A DNA stretch of 64,000 nucleotides, taken from NCBI RefSeq assembly GCF_003610195.1, contig NZ_RAPO01000001.1, forward strand, positions 434,001-498,000, given 5' to 3'. The DNA is from Halopiger aswanensis (GTDB taxonomy: Archaea > Halobacteriota > Halobacteria > Halobacteriales > Natrialbaceae). The translations under genes and the position numbers were made by a program. The notes under the pieces are model-generated. The model saw nothing but the letters and a program-made list of their open reading frames with translations. It had not been told where the DNA came from and searched no databases. Below are positions 29,423-45,939 of the stretch, piece after piece (positions within the stretch are counted from its first letter, which is position 1; each line of letters starts with the position of its first letter).

Positions 29423-32400
29423 TGACGAAACGTAACAACCGCCCCCGAACCGTATCGATTGCCGACGACGACCGAGCCCGCATCCCGTTTGCAATGATCG
29501 CCGTCCTGTTGCTCGTTACGAGTCTCGGGGCGATCGCGGTCCTCGAGCAGCGATCGGACCCGGTCATCGATCAAGAGGCCGAACTGGGTATGGACCGGAG
29601 CGTCACTGCGGCCCAGTCGGAGCTCCGGTCCGCGTCGATCGATGCGAGTCACAGCGCGGTGAGTGCACCGCTCATAACCGCTCGTACCGACACGGGTATC
29701 GATGCCATCGATTCGACGGCGGACGACCACGACGAGAACTTCGAGAACTACCTCAAATTGCTCATCTACCTCGAGGCGTACGAACGCCTGCCCGCTGCCG
29801 GACAAACTGTCGGCACCGACACCAAAACGACGGTATCCATCCCGAAGGTAACCGAAGACGGTGCCGGCGACGACGCGATTACGCCCGACGAGGCGATCGA
29901 CAGGGTCGATCTGGTGATCGGCGACTACGCCGACACGGAACTCGAGGCCGGGCTGCTCGAGGTGACGATCGAAGACGTCGAGATTCACAGCACCGCCACG
30001 GCGACGGAAACCCGACCGATCACGGTGACGGTCGGCGCACCGGTGAAACAGCTGGATGAACGGACGACCGAGTACGAATCCCAGCTCGACGCGGACTTCT
30101 TCGATGCGGATCTCAATGGCGAACTCTCCGGCCTCGGCCAGCACTCCGCCGCCCGGCTGTATCTCCTTGCGTACTTCAAAGCTGGCTGGGATCGGTTTGA
30201 CCGTACAGCGAGGCCTGACGATCACGACTTCGAGCGAGTACTCGAGCCGGAACATACGGAAGTCCTCATGAACGACGCGATCTTCGATGTCCAGCACGAC
30301 GTCTTCGGGACGAAGGACCCGTACGCGGATCGAACCATGCGACCGAAATACGTCTGCATGTCGTATCAGATGTTGGATTCTATGGAGAGGACTGGAGGCG
30401 GAAAGAAAAAGAAAGCTAATACGAACAATGACGGCAGTAACAGTGACAGCGCGGATGGTCTCGATAAAGCAGAAGAGCAACTCGAGGACGGGAAAATCGA
30501 AACCAACGGTAGTAATGGAGGCACCGAGGAAATCGACATCGAGGAACAACTCTGCGGCGACGGTGCGGTCCAGAACTGGTTATTCGGCGATTCGGCCACC
30601 GGCGAACTGCCCGACGTCCCGGAGCCGTCGGAGTTGCTACGAAGCGAACTCGAGGAGATGGAGGTGATGAACGAGGAAGAGCGGATTCCGTTCGCCGAGT
30701 CCGCCGAGGTCTCGTACACGTACTACGCGGCGAACGCCCACGTCGACGAAGCGGAGACGTACGTCGATCAGGCCGAACACCTCGTCGAACAAACCGACGA
30801 GATCGTCAACGAAGCCGACGAACAATATCAGGACGAGGTCGAAGAGTCGATCGAGGACGAAGCCGATCCGCCAGACATCGACACTAACGAGGATCGGACC
30901 ATCGGGAGTATGACGAAGGAGCTCTACGATATCGGCCTCGACAGGTCCGTGACTGATAGATCGCGGGGAAATATCCCGCAGCCGGACAGACCCGGCGGGA
31001 ACTACTCGCTCGAGGAATTCGACGTAATGATCACGAACGTCCACGAGGTGGACGCGAACCACGATGCGTTGCCTGATTCAGGCGGTGAGACGATCCACGA
31101 GATCGACGTGACCGCTGCCGTCGACCTCGAAGCGGACGAACGATGGGTCCACGACGACTCCGAGAACGCGAGCGAGTACGGCGAAGACGTAGTCGTTTCC
31201 CGCTCGCCTACCGGAGACGTGACGGTCGAAACAGAGGTCGAAATCCAATCGACCTACGACTTCTACGAGGAGGGGATGCACTACGATGACGAGGAGTTCG
31301 TACTCGATCAGGATCCGAATATCGAGTACGACTATCAGTCGCTCGAACTGGACAAGCTCGCGGACCAAAATCGGGTCGAGGTCGGAAGCGGCCAGAACTT
31401 CGAGGTCGCGTTTCGCAAGTCTCCCGTCGATGCGATGAATGTCAGGTCGTACGCCACGATCGAGACCGACCTCGAATCCAGCGCGAGAAGAATCGGCGGA
31501 GAAGTCGAAAACAGCGGCGACATCGAGGAGAAGATGCGAGACGCAGTCGTGTCTGACTCGTTTCAGGAAGACTACGACCTGACGGAACTCGAGCCCGTGG
31601 AGAACGAACTCATCGAGGATCTGCGCATCGAACTCGAACGAACCCACGACGAGTTCACCGAGTGGGCTCAAAAGGAGGACAACGCGTATACAGTCGAGCG
31701 AACCGAGCTTCTGGATTCCGACGCGGAGCCGATCACCGGCGCTATCGATCACATCAAAGCGGTCGAAGACGACTTCGTGTACGCCGACCTCTCCGAAGGT
31801 GCAGCCGACGGAGAGTTCGAAACGACAGGCGAGTATCTGACGGCACAGATCCGGAAGGCGTACTTCGATCGACTCTACCACTACATCGAGCGGATCGGCG
31901 ACCAGTACGAGGGGCAAGTCGAAGATTTTGAAGACGAGATCAACGAGATGAGTGAGGGCGGAACCAACAGCGCTGACGAGATCCTCGGGTTCGCACAAGA
32001 TGTCGTGAATGCGGACGTCGAGTACGATCCCGGTGAGATCGAGGGATCGCCGGTACTCGACGACGCCCAGTTCGAGATTTCCGGATCGCCGACGTACATG
32101 ACCCACGTGAATATTAGCCGGGAGCAGGATCCGGCGATCCGGCCCGAAAACAAGACGATCACCGACTTCGGCACGGAGACCGAGCACGTCCCGATGACGA
32201 TCCAGAGTGACAACCGAGCACCGTGGCCGGGTGTTCCGATTACACCCTACCCACCGCAGTTCTGGTTCTTCCAGACAAACACCTGGAACAGTACGGTCAA
32301 AGGGGAGTACGCCCGTTTCGAAGTCAGTGCCTCGGTCGGCAGTCCCGCTGACACAGAGCGGTTGACTTACGTTCGCGAGCATCGACCGATCGAGGTCGAA

Positions 32401-32652
32401 TTACACGATGGCACTAAGATAGAACTCGGAAAGAATGAGCCAATCACGTTCGAGAGTTCTACCGAAGTTATCGTCATCATGCCGGGCGCAGTCTTCCGAA
32501 ATGGTGGTGTTCCTGCAGTGGCCGACACATATCCCGAAGATATGGGACAGATAGCGTGCTCTCCGACTTGGGGGCACACCGGGCCGAATTTTGACTCCGG
32601 TAAAGCTGAGGAAAGGATAAAAGACAGGTGTGACTTCCCGGAGTACGAGTGA
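29422..32652 (+). CDS. Giant pilin-like surface protein, 1076 residues
   Basis: A 1076-residue acidic protein. A charged head of about 24 residues (DDDRARIP) leads into one N-terminal helix (FAMIAVLLLVTSLGAIAVLEQ), followed by over 1000 extracytoplasmic residues. These alternate beta-rich parts and long acidic helices (for example near 460-500, EAETYVDQAEHLVEQ). Near residues 325-370 is a low-complexity insert with GGGKKKKAN and Asn/Gly/Ser/Glu repeats; its DNA is A-rich (30391-30545). A pair of cysteines is near the C-terminus. No adhesin domain is recognised. I recall a haloarchaeal family DUF7286 here (from memory). It may be the tip or adhesive subunit; inference. Confidence 0.8.
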   Translation: MTKRNNRPRTVSIADDDRARIPFAMIAVLLLVTSLGAIAVLEQRSDPVIDQEAELGMDRSVTAAQSELRSASIDASHSAVSAPLITARTDTGIDAIDSTADDHDENFENYLKLLIYLEAYERLPAAGQTVGTDTKTTVSIPKVTEDGAGDDAITPDEAIDRVDLVIGDYADTELEAGLLEVTIEDVEIHSTATATETRPITVTVGAPVKQLDERTTEYESQLDADFFDADLNGELSGLGQHSAARLYLLAYFKAGWDRFDRTARPDDHDFERVLEPEHTEVLMNDAIFDVQHDVFGTKDPYADRTMRPKYVCMSYQMLDSMERTGGGKKKKANTNNDGSNSDSADGLDKAEEQLEDGKIETNGSNGGTEEIDIEEQLCGDGAVQNWLFGDSATGELPDVPEPSELLRSELEEMEVMNEEERIPFAESAEVSYTYYAANAHVDEAETYVDQAEHLVEQTDEIVNEADEQYQDEVEESIEDEADPPDIDTNEDRTIGSMTKELYDIGLDRSVTDRSRGNIPQPDRPGGNYSLEEFDVMITNVHEVDANHDALPDSGGETIHEIDVTAAVDLEADERWVHDDSENASEYGEDVVVSRSPTGDVTVETEVEIQSTYDFYEEGMHYDDEEFVLDQDPNIEYDYQSLELDKLADQNRVEVGSGQNFEVAFRKSPVDAMNVRSYATIETDLESSARRIGGEVENSGDIEEKMRDAVVSDSFQEDYDLTELEPVENELIEDLRIELERTHDEFTEWAQKEDNAYTVERTELLDSDAEPITGAIDHIKAVEDDFVYADLSEGAADGEFETTGEYLTAQIRKAYFDRLYHYIERIGDQYEGQVEDFEDEINEMSEGGTNSADEILGFAQDVVNADVEYDPGEIEGSPVLDDAQFEISGSPTYMTHVNISREQDPAIRPENKTITDFGTETEHVPMTIQSDNRAPWPGVPITPYPPQFWFFQTNTWNSTVKGEYARFEVSASVGSPADTERLTYVREHRPIEVELHDGTKIELGKNEPITFESSTEVIVIMPGAVFRNGGVPAVADTYPEDMGQIACSPTWGHTGPNFDSGKAEERIKDRCDFPEYE

Positions 32653-32877
32653 TAGATCGTCTAGCCAGTTATTGAAATATAATCTAACTTTTTATATCGG
32701 GATTATTTAATGTAATTCATTCCTGAATAGACCCTAGTTATATTCCAGGTACAGCCAATGGATTAATATCTTAAGTGTGAAAATAAAACTACAGAATATG
32801 GAAGACAGAAGATACCCTCGAGAAACCCGAACACCTAGCTATGCCCCACGAAAAGCTAGCACGGAGGCGGACCTACG
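32653..32877. other. AT-rich gap between the pilus-like locus and the propeller gene
   Basis: About 225 bases, visibly richer in A/T than the surrounding sequence, with several TATA-like elements (TTTTTATATCGG near 32690) and no open gene. It probably holds the terminator of the preceding operon and the promoter of the gene at 32878. A GGAGG Shine-Dalgarno-like site lies near 32863. Confidence 0.45.
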
Positions 32878-34254
32878 ATGATAACTCGAATTGGGCGACG
32901 TTCCGTGTTGACGGGAATTGGGGGATCTCTTGTCGGGGGATCAGCGTCCATGGTCAGTCGTGCACAGGACGAAACTGCAACTGGTCCGACCGTCTATGTT
33001 GGGTCGTACTCTGGGAATCTTATCGCCGCCGACGCATTGACTGGTGACCTCTTGTGGGAGCGGAGCGGACCCGGTTCACCGACGACATCACCAATTTCTG
33101 TCGACGGAACGCTCTATATCGGTTCCGGTCGAGAGCAGCTATATGCCCTTGATGCAGCGACAGGTAAAGAAGAATGGATATTTGACGAGCCTTCAGGTCG
33201 AGTCGATTCCTCACCAACGGTTGTCGATAACACCGTTTACATTGGTACGAAGAATAACACTATCTACGCTGTCGACGCAGAGACAGGTGACGAAGAATGG
33301 GAATTCGACTTACCAGAAGCACGAGTGACTTCATCACCAACGGTCCACAACGGCACCGTTTACGCCGGTTCACGAGATCACACACTCGATGCGGTCGACG
33401 CAGAGACTGGTGAGCATGAGTGGACGTTTTTTGATCCTGAGGATTGGGTCGATTCATCGCCGGCTATCTACGACGATACCCTCTACGTCTCTGCCTACGA
33501 CGAGGCGCTGTACGCAGTCAACCCGGAAACAGGTGATCAAGAACGGATAGTAACGGATTCGATCGAGGGTTCTCCGTCACCGGTGTTCGTCGACGACACG
33601 CTGTACATTCACGGCGACAACCTGTATGCTCTGGATCCGCAAACAGGAGAGGAGCAGTGGTCATATACCACATCTTGGAGTGGTGATTTGCTTTCCCCAA
33701 CAGTCGCCGACGGACTCGTCTTCACCGGTGGCGACGGACTGTACGCAGTGGACGCAGAGACAGGTGAAGAGCAGTGGACGCTCACCGACATTACTCCCGG
33801 CGATACGTCTCCAACGGTCTACGACGGGATGGTGTACACGGGTGTCGGTGGAAGCGATCAGACCATGTACGGTGTTCACGCTGAAAGTGGCGAGATTGAA
33901 TGGGAACTTGAGGGCGACTTTAGTGAATACTCAAGAGGATCTCCAACGGTCGTAGCGGATCCAGAAAGCGGCGATAGCGTCGACTCCCGGGTCCTGTTGG
34001 GGACGTTCAACCATCATCACGAGTCAACGACATCAATGGCGGATCTGCCGTCTGTCGACGGTTCCGAAAGTAGTAGCGCCTCCAGCAGAGGGAGCAGTGG
34101 AACCAGGGCCAGCAGTTCGAACTCGTCGGCTGCCGATGCAGATTCCGATGATGACGGCCTCCCCGGATTCGGTGTCCCCGCTGCAGTTTCCGGTCTCGGT
34201 GCCACAGCGTACATGTTAAAGCGACGCCTCGAGACTGAGGAAAACGATTCGTAG
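32878..34254 (+). CDS. Tat-exported PQQ-like beta-propeller with PGF-CTERM anchor
   Basis: A 458-residue surface protein. A twin-arginine signal GRRSVLTGIGGSLVGG opens it (residues 6-21). At least seven PQQ-type blades follow, each with the pattern Y-A-[LV]-[DN]-x-x-T-G-[ED] and a W/R nearby (YALDAATGKEEW, YAVDAETGDEEW, YALDPQTGEEQW). A Ser-rich stalk near 390-420 leads to the C-terminal sorting signal PGFGVPAAV, a hydrophobic helix and a KRR tail: the PGF-CTERM pattern cut and lipid-anchored by archaeosortase A. No enzyme residues are apparent, so binding or scaffolding is likely. Codon use is more A/T-rich than its neighbours. GGAGG precedes the ATG. Confidence 0.93.
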   Translation: MITRIGRRSVLTGIGGSLVGGSASMVSRAQDETATGPTVYVGSYSGNLIAADALTGDLLWERSGPGSPTTSPISVDGTLYIGSGREQLYALDAATGKEEWIFDEPSGRVDSSPTVVDNTVYIGTKNNTIYAVDAETGDEEWEFDLPEARVTSSPTVHNGTVYAGSRDHTLDAVDAETGEHEWTFFDPEDWVDSSPAIYDDTLYVSAYDEALYAVNPETGDQERIVTDSIEGSPSPVFVDDTLYIHGDNLYALDPQTGEEQWSYTTSWSGDLLSPTVADGLVFTGGDGLYAVDAETGEEQWTLTDITPGDTSPTVYDGMVYTGVGGSDQTMYGVHAESGEIEWELEGDFSEYSRGSPTVVADPESGDSVDSRVLLGTFNHHHESTTSMADLPSVDGSESSSASSRGSSGTRASSSNSSAADADSDDDGLPGFGVPAAVSGLGATAYMLKRRLETEENDS

Positions 34255-36421: not shown

Positions 36422-37543
36422 ATGAGCACAGACACCGACCCTGACTCCGACGCTGACGGCGAATCGACATCGAACTGCGGCGCATCGACCGACACCGAAA
36501 CCGAGACTTCGAACACCTCCAAATGCGGGGCCTCGAGCAGCAGTACTGAGGCCGAACCCTCGAGTTCGACTTCGAGTTCCGACTCGGACTCGAGCGGTTC
36601 GAAGTGTGGCGCTTCCTCGAGCGAAAGCGATGACTCGAGTAGTTCCAAATGCGGCGCCTCGAGTTCGTCGTCCTCGAGCGGCTCGAAGTGCGGCGCCTCG
36701 AGTTCCAGTTCCGACGACTCGAGTAGCAACGAGAAGGAGGTCGGCGCGACGATCGAAGACTTCGACGCCGAACCCGGCCAACTGGTCGCCGTCGGCCTCG
36801 GTCCCGGCCACCCCGAAGGGATGACCGAGCGCGCCAAGGACGCGCTGCTCGAGGCCGACCACATCGTCGGCTACACGACCTACATCGAACTCATCCCGGA
36901 CGAGATCACCGAGCAGGCCGAGGACATCTACGACACGCCGATGTGCGGCGAGGTCTCCCGCACGGAGGAGTCGATCGACCGCGCGCTGGCGGGCAACGAC
37001 GTCGCCATCGTCGGCAGCGGCGACCCCAACGTCTACGCGCTGGCCGGCCTGGCGCTCGAGATCCTCGAGTCCAAGGGCGCGACGGCTTCGATGGTCGACT
37101 TCGAGGTCGTGCCGGGCGTCCCGGCGGCCCAGTCCTGCGCCGCTCGCCTCGGCGCGCCGCTCGTGAACGACACGGTCTCGATCTCGCTGTCGGACCACCT
37201 CGTGCCGATGCCCGAGATCGAGTCCCGACTGCACTCGGTCGCCAGCGAGAACTTCGCGATCACGATCTACAATCCCTGGAGCCGTAAGCGCCGCGAGAAC
37301 TTCGAGAAGGCCTGCGAGATCCTGCTGACCCACCGCGATCCGGACACGCCGGTCGGCATCGTCCACGGCGCGGGCCGCGAGGACGAGCAGGTGATGCTCA
37401 CCGAACTCGGCGAACTCGAGGACCTCGGCGAGAGCGAGATCATCGACATGACGACGACGATCGTCGTCGGCACCGAGGATACCTACGTCTGGGACGACCG
37501 GATGGTCACCCCTCGCGGGTACGAGACGAAATACGACTACTGA
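36422..37543 (+). CDS. cbiH: CbiH-type methyltransferase (second copy) with CGAS-repeat tail
   Basis: A 373-residue protein. The catalytic part starts near residue 108: VAVGLGPGHPEGMTERA, VGYTTYIELIP, IVGSGDPNVYALAG (SAM-site GSGDP), VVPGVPAAQSCAARLGAPL, SLSDHLVP, YNPWSRKRRENF and a final TPRGY. It thus keeps all CbiH/CobJ motifs. Unusually, the first 107 residues are a Ser/Asp/Glu tail with five Cys-Gly-Ala-Ser units, cysteines at 19, 35, 62, 77 and 90; there are no other cysteines in the tail. The tail might bind a metal such as Co2+ or form disulfides; that is speculation. Gap to the first cbiH is 12 bases. Confidence 0.9.
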   Translation: MSTDTDPDSDADGESTSNCGASTDTETETSNTSKCGASSSSTEAEPSSSTSSSDSDSSGSKCGASSSESDDSSSSKCGASSSSSSSGSKCGASSSSSDDSSSNEKEVGATIEDFDAEPGQLVAVGLGPGHPEGMTERAKDALLEADHIVGYTTYIELIPDEITEQAEDIYDTPMCGEVSRTEESIDRALAGNDVAIVGSGDPNVYALAGLALEILESKGATASMVDFEVVPGVPAAQSCAARLGAPLVNDTVSISLSDHLVPMPEIESRLHSVASENFAITIYNPWSRKRRENFEKACEILLTHRDPDTPVGIVHGAGREDEQVMLTELGELEDLGESEIIDMTTTIVVGTEDTYVWDDRMVTPRGYETKYDY

Positions 37544-41597: not shown

Positions 41598-41737
41598 GCG
41601 TTCGAGACGGTCGACTCGATCGATCGGTTCCGCGGTTCTGTTTTTCCGTCAGTTCTCGAAACCGGCCGACACGCGGCGGTCAGTCGCACACGCAAGGGAA
41701 ATCACCACAACGCTCACCCTCGTGTTTTCTGCACATA

Positions 41738-43363
41738 ATGACAGCACGCCTAGAAGATGATGGTTCCGAGGACTGTCCCGATCCCGTGGAGGTCGCGGAC
41801 GTCCTGAGCAACCGTCAGGACGGTGACCGAGCGACTCGAGCGGAGCGCAGGGTGATGACCGACGGCGGTCAGGCGGAGATGTCGGATCCGGACGAGGAGG
41901 AAGCCGACGGAGACGACGCCGAAGAAACGGACGCAGGAACAGAGGACGAGGACGCCGAAGAAGCGGAAACAGCGGAAGAATCTGAATCCGAGGAAGCGGA
42001 GGGGGAAGAAGCGGAAGCCGAGGAAGAAGCCGAAACCGAGGAAACAGAGACAGAGGACGAAGAAGCCGAAGAAGAAGGGGCCGAGGGAGCGGGCGATGCT
42101 GAAGACGAGGAAGCAGAGAGTGAAGGAGACGGAGCCCAGGAGGAAACTGAAGAAACCGACGAAGGGGAAGAAGAGGACACGGCGGCTGAAGACGAGGAAA
42201 CCGAGGGAGAGGACACAGAAGACCTCGCGGAGGGCGCAGAAGAACAGGAAGTCGAAGAAGACGAAGAAGACCTCGAGGAGGATGCTCAAGCAGAAGAATT
42301 CGAGGACGAAGGTGAGCGCGAGGAGGAAGCCGAAGAGGGCGAAGAGGAAGAATCTGAGGCTGGAGAGGAGGAAGAAGAGCGAGATGTCGGCGAGGATACC
42401 GGCGAACTCACCGAGGACAATCGCGAAGAGGGCCACGCCGACGACGCCGAAAAGGTCTACGAGGGCGACGACGCCTCCGGCGTCCTGCACCTCGATCTCG
42501 ACGGCCTATTCCTCGACCTGCTCGGCCTCGAGGTCAATCTGAACCCGGTCCAGCTCGACGTGTCGGCGCGGCCGGGCGAGAACAACCTGCTGGGGAACCT
42601 GCTGTCCGCGGTGACGGGACTGCTTGACGGCCCCGGTGCGATGATCGACAAGGCGAAAGAGCTCCTGAGCAAGCCGATCGAACTGCTCAAGAAGGTTCCC
42701 GGGAAGCTGAAGGAGATTCCCGGGAAGGCCAAGGAGTTGTTCAGCGGTCTGCTCGAGAAGCCCAAGGAGTTCCTCAGCAACCTGGTGAGCAAGCCGAAGG
42801 AACTGTTCAACAAGCTGCTGGGGCTGCTGGGACTCGGCGGCGAGGACGAAGCCGAGGGCGAGGAAGCGGCCGAAGGCGAAGCGGAAGGGGAAGGGGAGGA
42901 AGCGGAATCCGGCGGTCGGATATCCTCGGCTCTCAGCTGGGTGAAAGGGATCCTCGGCAAGCCAGTGCAGTGGCTCCGCGGACTCTTCGGCGGCGGTGAG
43001 GAGGAAACGCCGGAAGCGGAAGCCGAAGAAGCGGCCGAAGCCGAGGCCGAGGACGAAGAAGCACCGGACGAAGCCGAGGGCGAAGAGAGCGAAGGGACGC
43101 CGGACGAGGCGGACGTGGAAGAAGACGAAGAGACTGGGGAAACGGATGAAGCGGACGAGACGACCGACTCCCCTGGCCCGATCTCCGCCGTCAGCGACCG
43201 GGCGAAAGAGGGACTCGCCGGACTCATACCGAGTTTACCGGTCGAGGACCTCGTTGCGGCGGTCGTCAGTCAGATACTCGAGCAACTGATCGAGCAGCTA
43301 GAGCCGGGCGAAGAGCAGGAAGAGGCGGGTGACCAGGCGGACGCGACAGCGGAGGCAGCCTAA
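41738..43363 (+). CDS. Hyperacidic protein with LLGNLL domain and amphipathic K-P helices
   Basis: A 541-residue protein, first of a four-gene cassette. Residues 45-245 are almost wholly Glu/Asp/Ala, mostly encoded by GAA although neighbours prefer GAG. Residues 250-300 hold a leucine-rich domain (VLHLDLDGLFLDLLGLEV, then NNLLGNLLSAVTGLLDG) that I recall as widespread but uncharacterised in secreted or envelope proteins. Residues 305-370 are amphipathic helices of about 11-13 residues, each starting K-P or P-G-K (SKPIELLKKV, EKPKEFLSNLV, SKPKELFNKLLGLLG), like lipid-binding apolipoproteins. A second Glu-rich part is followed by the C-terminal helix SLPVEDLVAAVVSQILEQL. No signal peptide. Function unknown. 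Confidence 0.82.
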   Translation: MTARLEDDGSEDCPDPVEVADVLSNRQDGDRATRAERRVMTDGGQAEMSDPDEEEADGDDAEETDAGTEDEDAEEAETAEESESEEAEGEEAEAEEEAETEETETEDEEAEEEGAEGAGDAEDEEAESEGDGAQEETEETDEGEEEDTAAEDEETEGEDTEDLAEGAEEQEVEEDEEDLEEDAQAEEFEDEGEREEEAEEGEEEESEAGEEEEERDVGEDTGELTEDNREEGHADDAEKVYEGDDASGVLHLDLDGLFLDLLGLEVNLNPVQLDVSARPGENNLLGNLLSAVTGLLDGPGAMIDKAKELLSKPIELLKKVPGKLKEIPGKAKELFSGLLEKPKEFLSNLVSKPKELFNKLLGLLGLGGEDEAEGEEAAEGEAEGEGEEAESGGRISSALSWVKGILGKPVQWLRGLFGGGEEETPEAEAEEAAEAEAEDEEAPDEAEGEESEGTPDEADVEEDEETGETDEADETTDSPGPISAVSDRAKEGLAGLIPSLPVEDLVAAVVSQILEQLIEQLEPGEEQEEAGDQADATAEAA

Positions 43364-43365
43364 CA

Positions 43366-43938
43366 ATGAGCGGAGAATCCGAATCCGACACCGAGTCTAC
43401 GTCAATGGCCCAGCGTATCGACTACGAGAAGATCACCGACAATATCGACGTCGACGACCTGATCGAGGGAACCCAGTGGGAAGACGAGATCGACGAGGAC
43501 CAGCCCCTGGGAGAAGCACTCGGTGGCCAGATCGGTGCGCTCGTCGGCCGAAAAGTCGGCGAATCCATCGGCCGAACGATCGGCGATATGGTCGTCGAAG
43601 AACTGCTCGGGACCAAAGAGGAGGCGGACGAATCCGAGACGGACGAGGAATCGGACGAATCCGAAGGTGAGGAAGGTGAGGAAGACGAGGACGAAGAAAG
43701 CGCCGGCGAAGAATCCGAAGACGACGAATCAGCGGACGAAGACACCGACTCGGAAGAAGCAGAGGAAAGCGAGGAAGCCGAGGACTCGTCCGACGACGAC
43801 TCGGAGTCCGCCGAGTCCGACAGCGATGACGCCGATAGCGGCGAGACCGAGGAGACCGAAACGAGCGACGACGATGACTCCGATTCCGAAGCCGAAGAAG
43901 CGGACGAAGAAACGGCTGAAGCGGAAGCGGAGGAGTAA
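43366..43938 (+). CDS. Hyperacidic protein with glycine-zipper domain (first paralogue)
   Basis: A 190-residue protein, two bases after the previous gene. Residues 15-85 form a compact domain: DVDDLIEGTQWEDEID followed by the glycine zipper GEALGGQIGALVGRKVGESI and GRTIGDMVVEELLG. The same layout recurs in the gene at 43996, so the two are paralogous. Residues 88-190 are a Glu/Asp/Ser tail. Glycine zippers of the GxxxG type pack helices closely, in membranes or in oligomers. No signal peptide, no enzyme motif. Spacing shows it is co-transcribed with the other members. Confidence 0.8.
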   Translation: MSGESESDTESTSMAQRIDYEKITDNIDVDDLIEGTQWEDEIDEDQPLGEALGGQIGALVGRKVGESIGRTIGDMVVEELLGTKEEADESETDEESDESEGEEGEEDEDEESAGEESEDDESADEDTDSEEAEESEEAEDSSDDDSESAESDSDDADSGETEETETSDDDDSDSEAEEADEETAEAEAEE

Positions 43939-43940
43939 TC

Positions 43941-44003
43941 ATGGCGTGGAATCGTCCCGACGACCCACGGCCGGTCCCGGCTCGAGGTGAACGCTATGAG
44001 TGA
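43941..44003 (+). CDS. Possible 20-residue leader ORF overlapping the next start
   Basis: A 21-codon open frame (MAWNRPDDPRP...) preceded by a strong Shine-Dalgarno-like GGAGGAG five bases before its ATG. It ends in a TGA that overlaps the ATG of the next gene. It could be a translated leader that couples expression of the cassette, or chance. Too short to judge by sequence. Confidence 0.3.
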   Translation: MAWNRPDDPRPVPARGERYE

Positions 44004-44997
44004 AAGCGAGAGCGGAAGCCAGAGCGGGCTGAAAGAGCTGGTGAGCCGGGAGGTGAGCAACCAACTGGACGTGGCCGACCTGCTCGGCGACGGCAACATC
44101 GAGGACAACATCGACGGCGGCGAGGTCGGTGCTGCAGTCGGACGCGAGTTCGGCGAACGCATCGGTCGCGAACTGGGTGCGGCGATCGGTCGCGGCATCC
44201 ACGAAGCGATCGCTGAGGGCCTCGAGGAAGGAAAGGATCGCAAGGAGATCCGGTCGGACCTCGCGACCGCGATCCGTAACGCAATCCGGGAGAGCGTCGA
44301 CGAAAACGACGCCTCGGAATCGGTCCGGTCACTGGCACAGGGGATCACCGACGAGAGCAGTCTCGAAGGGCTGCTCGAGAGCGGTGATGAGGATGAGGAC
44401 GAACCGGCGTCTGAATCAGAATCCGAATCGGAGTCGGCCTCGGACTCGGAATCGGACGCCGAGAGCGGGGCCGAATCCGAATCCGAATCCGGGGCGAAAG
44501 ACAAAGCGGCCAGCGCTCGAGACGCGGTCGAGTCGGCCGCCGAATCGGCGAGCGAGGCCAGCGGACTCGACGAGTTGCTCGAGAGCGACGAGGACGAAGC
44601 CGAGGATGACGGCGACGACGAATCGACAGTCGACAGCGACGACGGAGAAACAGCAGACGAGACGACCGAAGACGAGACTGACGACGCCGGAACAGAGGCC
44701 GAAGGCGGCGAAGGGGAAGAAGAGACGGACAGCGACGACGACTCCGAACCCTCTGCGGGCGACCTCGAGGATCTCAGGCGTGAGACGCTCGAGGACTTCC
44801 TCGGGATGATGTCGTACGAGGATCTCCAGTCGATCGCCAAGGACGTCGGCGTAAAGGCGAACCTCAGCCGCGAGGAGATGACCGACGAGATCATCGACGC
44901 CGTAGCGGGGGACGATGAGGATGGCGACGAGTCAGACGCCGAATCGGAGGAGTCGGAGTCAGACTCTGACGCGAAAGCGGAGTCGGAAGCGGGATGA
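43996..44997 (+). CDS. Hyperacidic protein with glycine-zipper and SAP/Rho_N-like domains (second paralogue)
   Basis: A 333-residue protein. Residues 10-80 repeat the domain of the previous gene: LDVADLLGDGNIEDNIDGG, then GAAVGREFGERIGRELGAAI and GRGIHEAIAEGLEEG. A helical part follows to about 130. A Ser/Glu/Asp low-complexity stretch (about 130-250) contains SES and ESE runs. Near 260-305 is a small helical domain, MSYEDLQSIAKDVGVKANLS followed by REEMTDEIIDAV, which resembles SAP or Rho_N domains that bind nucleic acid. An acidic tail ends the protein. The ATG at 43996 has a GAGGTGA Shine-Dalgarno site. Role unknown. Confidence 0.8.
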   Translation: MSESESGSQSGLKELVSREVSNQLDVADLLGDGNIEDNIDGGEVGAAVGREFGERIGRELGAAIGRGIHEAIAEGLEEGKDRKEIRSDLATAIRNAIRESVDENDASESVRSLAQGITDESSLEGLLESGDEDEDEPASESESESESASDSESDAESGAESESESGAKDKAASARDAVESAAESASEASGLDELLESDEDEAEDDGDDESTVDSDDGETADETTEDETDDAGTEAEGGEGEEETDSDDDSEPSAGDLEDLRRETLEDFLGMMSYEDLQSIAKDVGVKANLSREEMTDEIIDAVAGDDEDGDESDAESEESESDSDAKAESEAG

Positions 44998-45063
44998 CGC
45001 CACTCGCGTTCGACCGACTCAAGCGGGCGTACCACCACTACCGGCGGAGTACAAGATCGATCC

Positions 45064-45939
45064 ATGAGCGAACAACTGCACGATCGCGTTACCGATCTAC
45101 TGAACCGGGCCGACGACCAGAGCGGATCGCTAGTGGCCGGGTCCACGGCGGACGGCGACGCAGAATCGAGCGCTGACGCCGAAGCAGCGAACGACGTCCG
45201 CGACCTCGCTGCCGAGGCAAACGACCTCCTCGACTCGTCGGACCCAAACGAGTTGCTCGCGGCGGTCGGACTGGAGACGCTCCCCGACGGAACCGAACCC
45301 AACTCGATCCCGGAGGCGATCGCAAAGGGCGATCCGAACGCGGTCGAGGACCTCCAGCGGTTGCTCCACCTCGCGCGACTCGCCGATCGCGGCGACGGCC
45401 TCGAGGACGCCATCGGCAGCGTTCGCGCAGGTATCGGCGAGTCCAGTGATCCCGATTCGGGCGATCCCACCGAGACCGAATCCGAGTCAGGCGACGAGTC
45501 CGCTGCGTCGTCGACCGACGAGGCCTCGAGTTCCGCGGCGGCGGATAAGACGAGCGACGCTGCGGACGCAACCAGCGATCTCGAAGAGCGGCTGCGGTCC
45601 GCGATGACGTCGTCGCTTACGGACTTCAGCGACGACGTGAGCCAACTTCAGGAACGGCTCGAGTCGCTCGGCGGTGGCGGGGACGCCGACGAATCCGAAG
45701 CGACCGACGAACCCGACGAAGCAGCGGCTGCCGAGGGCGAACGTGACACCGACCCGGAGGATGAGGCACGCGACGAGTCGGATGACGGCCTGTTCGGAAC
45801 GGACCTCGGATCGGGGGGCAATCGCGGCACATCGGGGAGCGGGACGCGATACTCGACGATGGCACCGCCACCCTCGAAGCGCGCGGATATGCGCGGGACA
45901 GCCCGATTCTCGACGATTCCGGACAAGATACGGGACTGA
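45064..45939 (+). CDS. Hyperacidic helical protein with basic C-terminal tail
   Basis: A 291-residue protein, last of the cassette and 66 bases after the third member. Residues 1-125 are helical, with two or three amphipathic segments (LHDRVTDLLNRADDQ, DVRDLAAEANDLLDSSDP, AVEDLQRLLHLARLADRG). An Asp/Glu/Ser/Ala linker follows, then a coiled-coil segment near 180-205 (LTDFSDDVSQLQERLESLG). The last 35 residues are Gly/Pro-rich and basic (PPPSKRADMRGTARF), in contrast to the acidic rest, and may contact nucleic acid or the acidic partners. No signal peptide or known family. Confidence 0.78.
   Translation: MSEQLHDRVTDLLNRADDQSGSLVAGSTADGDAESSADAEAANDVRDLAAEANDLLDSSDPNELLAAVGLETLPDGTEPNSIPEAIAKGDPNAVEDLQRLLHLARLADRGDGLEDAIGSVRAGIGESSDPDSGDPTETESESGDESAASSTDEASSSAAADKTSDAADATSDLEERLRSAMTSSLTDFSDDVSQLQERLESLGGGGDADESEATDEPDEAAAAEGERDTDPEDEARDESDDGLFGTDLGSGGNRGTSGSGTRYSTMAPPPSKRADMRGTARFSTIPDKIRD

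Follow-up and report, generated by a model that had tools for sequence, protein, structure and literature searches.

The shell-finishing function of gas vesicles is provided in Halobacterium and Haloferax by GvpC (Halo_GVPC, PF05465), a second structural protein, acidic and helical, whose gene lies between gvpA and gvpN. In Anabaena, the helical repeats of GvpC form a chain that follows the GvpA ribs (PMC9994262). Absence of gvpC has been on record for Natrialba since 2012, when the genome of Natrialba magadii was described with an extended GvpI and 11 gvp genes, gvpC, gvpD and gvpE being absent (PMC3403918), and a review of 2015 gives gvpC as absent from Halopiger, Haladaptatus, Natrinema, Natrialba and Natronobacterium (PMC4390858). 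A table of 2022 lists these species as gvpACNO (PMC9501494); we find no support for this listing in the clusters that we read. Here we describe a four-gene cassette (g1 to g4, encoding proteins 1 to 4) of Halopiger aswanensis, located in a 64,000-nucleotide stretch of contig NZ_RAPO01000001.1 (assembly GCF_003610195.1, positions 434,001 to 498,000; hereafter 'the window', to which all coordinates without a locus number refer), which almost certainly belongs to the gas-vesicle gene set. We suggest it as a candidate for the missing part of the gvpC-less clusters, consisting of the new family g1, the new and mutually related families g2 and g3, and a paralogue of GvpI.

Deletion of GvpI, the homologue of protein 4, leads to extremely long vesicles (PMC4390858, PMC9501494), and split green fluorescent protein assays place GvpI in contact with GvpH, GvpC and GvpL (PMC9501494, PMC7688916). 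Our literature search, with preprints and most subscription papers outside its scope, returned no description of the unlinked cassette, in agreement with a first-pass annotation, made by a model from the letters of the window, which had picked this place as its best candidate for an undescribed system.

Results

All four open reading frames are present on the plus strand and in the order that the first-pass annotation had given, starting at 41738, 43366, 43996 and 45064, with gaps of 2 (g1-g2), 57 (g2-g3) and 66 nucleotides (g3-g4):

41738-43363, plus strand: g1, 541 residues; LLGNLL domain and amphipathic helices behind a long acidic N-terminal region
43366-43938, plus strand: g2, 190 residues; glycine-zipper domain followed by a hyperacidic tail, homologous to the N-terminus of g3
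43996-44997, plus strand: g3, 333 residues; glycine-zipper N-terminal domain, acidic linker, SAP-like C-terminal domain
45064-45939, plus strand: g4, 291 residues; GvpI paralogue (hhalign against the GvpI family)

The g4 family matches the GvpI family over 245 columns with an hhalign probability of 99.6% (expectation value, E, 4.8e-24). Since GvpI itself is present in the gvp cluster of the same genome, where another GvpI and not g4 holds the slot between gvpH and gvpJ, g4 is a paralogue. The basic tail noted in the first-pass annotation is present and conserved:

45847-45936, plus strand: basic C-terminal motif of g4 with two ST(M/V/I)x repeats (RYSTMAPPPSKRADMRGTARFSTIPDKIRD), common to the GvpI C-terminus

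A double ST(M/V)P C-terminal motif falls within the profile match of g4 and GvpI and recurs in a short GvpI that belongs to a GvpC-type cluster (L127 6660-7106). Compared with the GvpI signature NPTA-STMP ... STVP ... RIYGRRF, however, g4 has STMA/STIP and lacks both NPTA and the terminal RIYGRRF segment. Remote homologues of g4 are found between gvpH and gvpJ, that is, in the place of GvpI (L071, L066). Scans of all four cassette proteins against Pfam and NCBIfam, in which g1 was likewise assigned no family, gave nothing above cut-off; a match of g4 to SctB2 (E 0.001, below cut-off) was judged compositional, and weak g4 matches in four gvp-negative genomes (G023, G035, G059, G131; E 3e-4 to 0.009) were attributed to chance in acidic or coiled stretches. 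Lone GvpI-like genes with a GvpI-like C-terminal signature also occur off gvp clusters (L068, L069, L072; e.g. L069 7005-7799, which adjoins a pdxS-like gene).

When 145 genomes of the class were searched with g4 and the neighbourhoods were read (gene calls beyond the window being those of a simple in-house caller), the fixed order g1-g2-g3-g4 was found in about 30 genomes; it is kept across many genera in differing surroundings, far beyond chance, which bears out the earlier expectation of one cassette with co-occurring homologues. In some of these genomes the cassette adjoins cobalamin genes as it does here, but these upstream genes were rejected as partners since the order is intact where they are absent (L044, L047, L048, L050, L055, L056, L060); the four genes move together, and the cobalamin genes are no part of this unit. 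In the source genome the gvp cluster, gvpANO / gvpFGHIJKLM without gvpC, is carried by another contig (C2) and the cassette is unlinked to it. By comparison with this arrangement, 20 fetched loci from several haloarchaeal families, among which two pairs look like one locus fetched twice (L141/L188, L140/L208), have g1 inside or beside a gvp cluster: between gvpH and gvpI (L092, L118, L178, L182, L184), behind gvpO (L066, L091, L116, L220, L224), or as the complete g1-g2-g3-g4 adjoining gvpO-gvpA (L117, L140, L141, and L226 and L227 of Halohasta). In these other families the gvp locus holds either all of the cassette or g1 accompanied by g2/g3-like genes. A plasmid-borne relative carries the annotation 'hypothetical protein'. 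Many GvpC-less gas-vesicle clusters also lack gvpN, which encodes an AAA-ATPase, and have gvpO right after gvpA (L066, L089-L093, L116-L120, L140, L141, L226, L227).

The cassette and gas-vesicle genes are coupled phyletically. With one genome per species, the gas-vesicle protein PF00741 as the mark of a gvp-positive genome and a 125-residue core of g1 as query, the 145 class genomes comprise 48 with both, none with g1 alone, 10 with gvp alone and 87 with neither, so that g1 is present in 48/58 gvp-positive and 0/87 gvp-negative genomes. Among 125 genomes of the family the corresponding counts are 108, 0, 4 and 13 (g1 in 108 of the 112 gvp-positive genomes and in 0 of the 13 gvp-negative ones). 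Fisher tests, which ignore the relatedness of the genomes, yield 8e-29 for the class and 2e-14 for the family. Apart from one chance-level match in a gvp-negative genome, the zipper domain of g2 is distributed as is g1. Joint absences of g1 and gvp within genera whose other members carry both (G028, G092, G191; G046) argue for repeated joint loss.

Within the gvp-positive genomes, the cassette and GvpC complement each other cluster by cluster, and GvpA differs accordingly. Halo_GVPC repeats adjoin gvpA in 8/58 gvp-positive genomes, and g1 occurs in 0/8 of these. A GvpC-type gene encoding 340-416 residues follows gvpA in L095, L127, L129, L132-L135 and L137, the last being the cluster of G155, a gvp-positive family genome without g1, whereas in every g1-type cluster examined gvpN or gvpO directly follows gvpA and the gvpC slot is empty; the source genome has no match to PF05465. 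The tail of GvpA past its conserved helix measures 23-53 residues in 25 g1-type clusters as against 10-16 in eight GvpC-type clusters. Both states coexist in G005, where one cluster is of the g1 type, without GvpC and with a long-tailed GvpA, while the other has GvpC and a short-tailed GvpA; a genome-level rule that GvpC and g1 are never found together was dropped for this reason. Weak Halo_GVPC matches in G029, G057, G062, G040, G112, G139 and G128 were set aside as chance matches to acidic or coiled stretches. Although g1 stands in the same role-slot as GvpC by its complementary distribution, it is not sited between gvpA and gvpN and has, instead of GvpC repeats, an LLGNLL domain and three partner genes.

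The genes of the cassette appear to form one operon, as is supported by short or overlapping gene borders (the median g1-g2 distance across cassettes is -4) and by an element conserved upstream of g1:

41684-41709, plus strand: conserved upstream element TCGCAYACGCAAGGSMAAYYACCACA, ~30-55 base pairs 5' of the g1 start, from the aligned upstream regions of 17 cassettes

This element, probably the promoter or operator of the cassette, has one site in the entire 4.87-megabase genome when up to three mismatches are allowed; chance expectation in the window is none, and in many other loci a single copy likewise precedes g1. The g1 start at 41738 is backed by the N-terminus MTAxLEDDGSEEC...TDGGQAEM, which is kept in other genera. 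A promoter element common to the cassette and the gvp cluster was sought, but no shared operator emerged, the element of the cassette having its only genomic site at g1. In the source family a different conserved element, CTTGCA..CGCAG....CGTGTTACG, precedes gvpA (L076 10285-10376 and equivalents).

With fractions of aspartate plus glutamate of 0.46 (g2), 0.38 (g1) and 0.35 (g3), three of the proteins are the most acidic called in the window (median 0.20), and the description 'hyperacidic' in the first-pass annotation holds for them; that of g4 is milder (0.25). Protein 1 contains the following elements:

42479-42637, plus strand: LLGNLL domain, conserved in the alignment; 80 loci by genome scan, nearly all haloarchaeal
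42635-42832, plus strand: Lys/Leu-rich amphipathic helices punctuated by prolines; helices predicted by AlphaFold2 (block predicted local distance difference test, pLDDT, mostly 65-83) and hydrophobic moments
43178-43306, plus strand: C-terminal helical pair, residues ~481-523 (AlphaFold2 block pLDDT up to 89)

Both the LLGNLL-type domain and amphipathic, apolipoprotein-like helices had been proposed for this protein. The domain, for which the libraries searched hold no family name, is conserved; amphipathicity is borne out for three of six tested helix segments, whose hydrophobic moment is reached by less than 2% of shuffles, but the genomic context does not support a lipid partner. The same domain with its LLGNLL core is also present in proteins of haloarchaea and Salipaludibacillus unconnected with gvp (L142 7655-8080, L143 7347-7967, L144 7157-7750, L218 6638-7225, L221 6569-7159). 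Their genes are not near gvp genes, and signal sequences are present in several of them, whereas protein 1 has none; the bacterial ones, from Salipaludibacillus, have no gvp neighbours and look secreted.

Proteins 2 and 3 share one domain, as had been proposed, their N-terminal domains being homologous (hhalign 98.6%, E 1e-15). The elements of these two proteins are:

43480-43605, plus strand: glycine-zipper helix of g2, consensus LGealGg.iGa.vGRk.Ges.GrtiG
44116-44226, plus strand: glycine-zipper helix of g3, residues 41-77, from the alignment (pLDDT 80-95)
44755-44922, plus strand: SAP/Rho_N-like three-helix domain of g3, residues 254-309 (pLDDT mostly >90; Foldseek)

In the GxxxGxxxGxxxG motif of the g3 zipper, G49, G53, G57 and G61 are invariant among 40 g3 homologues. 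The Pfam model Gly-zipper_Omp matches the zipper of g2 only below its cut-off (12.4 bits vs 25). For the SAP/Rho_N-like domain that the first-pass annotation had assigned to protein 3, the helical fold is predicted with high confidence and resembles the SAP chains of DEK, 3'hExo and PIAS-1 in Foldseek, but the expectation values are weak: they exceed 1 in Foldseek (for DEK, E 1.6 at a probability of 0.98), Rho_N is matched in 2/40 g3 homologues with a best E of 0.002, no SAP/Rho_N family model hits g3 of the window, and the remainder of protein 3 is strongly acidic. A module resembling this domain, although with weak similarity (hhalign 30%, E 6e-4), forms the end of two GvpC-type proteins (L129 14555-15577 and L137 10684-11934), the first of which the Pfam search for Halo_GVPC in its genome had missed. 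As two GvpC variants end in this way, the domain of protein 3 may serve protein contacts at the vesicle surface rather than the binding of nucleic acid.

Discussion

While the assignment of the cassette to the gas-vesicle gene set is almost certain, the role that it plays there is a matter of graded probability. Taken together, the evidence is probably best explained by a detached gas-vesicle operon supplying GvpC-like shell-finishing. The distribution of g1 suggests that the cassette replaces GvpC in most of the gas-vesicle-bearing haloarchaea examined, and from its complementarity to GvpC we lean, if only slightly, towards the cassette being a substitute for GvpC proper. We infer roles in shell binding, reinforcement, oligomerization and adaptation as follows. 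Expressed from an operon separated from the main gvp cluster, protein 1 would lie with its amphipathic helices and LLGNLL domain on the outer GvpA ribs, aided by the longer acidic tail of GvpA, and at high salinity its long acidic region would form a hydrated coat. Through their glycine zippers, proteins 2 and 3 may self-associate and in this way link molecules of protein 1 to one another or to the assembly complex, and protein 4 might serve as an adaptor to Gvp assembly proteins that tunes vesicle length and shape. Haloarchaea would then finish their shells by two non-homologous routes, either with GvpC or with a coat of proteins 1 to 4 and an extended GvpA tail, the latter being commoner in our sample and having been overlooked because its genes no longer lie with the gvp cluster; we regard the chances for and against this two-route scheme as evenly balanced.

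Several observations weigh against a shell-finishing role. Protein 1 is devoid of GvpC repeats and of detectable GvpC homology (no PF05465 hit in Pfam), and AlphaFold2 models it with low confidence (mean pLDDT 59). It is not obvious what a SAP-like domain would do in reinforcing a shell. GvpC and g1 are both missing from three gvp-positive genomes whose clusters look intact (G070, G125, G145), so that a GvpC-like function is not obligatory, and two others are likewise gvp-positive without g1, of which one (G189) appears to have lost gvpN (L138) and the other (G160) is 83% complete. Finally, several species with such gvpC-less clusters have been reported as vacuole-negative (Vac-) in the laboratory (PMC4390858).

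This last report might indicate that in Natrialbaceae the cassette joins with the gvp genes in building a structure that does not serve buoyancy, for example a small GvpA shell with an acidic outer layer, the genes being kept in 108/125 family genomes all the same. We consider this quite improbable, since the core set of GvpA, F, G, J, K, L, M and O is complete and conserved, and the Vac- phenotype may reflect merely unsuitable culture conditions. Less probable still, to the point that we give it hardly any weight, is the model of the first-pass annotation, a scaffold that connects membrane or lipid surfaces with nucleic acid, if read as having nothing to do with gas vesicles. Amphipathic helices and a SAP-like fold are indeed present, but the homology to GvpI, the linkage to gvp in 20 loci and the near-perfect coupling to gvp, with absence from gvp-negative genomes, point to gas vesicles instead; on account of the homology, the location in gvp clusters and the phyletic coupling, the helices of protein 1 are also more likely to meet the protein shell of GvpA than lipid.

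Two further explanations keep the cassette within gas-vesicle biology. GvpU of Bacillus megaterium is a clustering protein that acts by phase transition, and as an accessory protein acting on whole vesicles it offers a possible functional parallel: the long acidic disordered regions and glycine-zipper oligomers of the cassette might condense vesicles into bundles or anchor them, possibly to the nucleoid via the SAP-like domain, without reinforcing the shell. The Pfam scans found no homology to GvpU and we found no sequence link between it and the cassette; moreover, clustering alone would leave the per-cluster complementarity to GvpC and the co-varying GvpA tail unexplained, and we view it as unlikely. 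The other places the cassette proteins in nucleation, elongation or length control, like GvpI and GvpH, and hence not in the finished vesicle. That g4 is a GvpI paralogue, that GvpI promotes the oligomerization of GvpJ, GvpK and GvpM (PMC7688916), that f8 genomes have g1-/g2-like genes between gvpH and gvpI, inside the assembly operon, and that gvpN is absent from many of the g1-type clusters not arranged in the Natrialba manner are all consistent with such a role. The exclusive relation of the cassette with the structural protein GvpC, however, fits a shell role better, and a purely assembly-related function appears to us unlikely to a similar degree.

If GvpC-like shell-finishing by the cassette is correct, the gas vesicles of archaea would comprise a second type, the 11-gene clusters of these species may look incomplete for this reason, and new shell proteins would become available for engineered acoustic vesicles.

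Two features elsewhere in the window may be recorded:

30001-34000: segment with a guanine-plus-cytosine content of 0.53-0.58 vs ~0.65 in the rest of the window, possibly acquired
36422-37543, plus strand: CbiH-like precorrin methyltransferase with repeated (K)CGASSS in a Ser-rich N-terminal extension, possibly metal-binding

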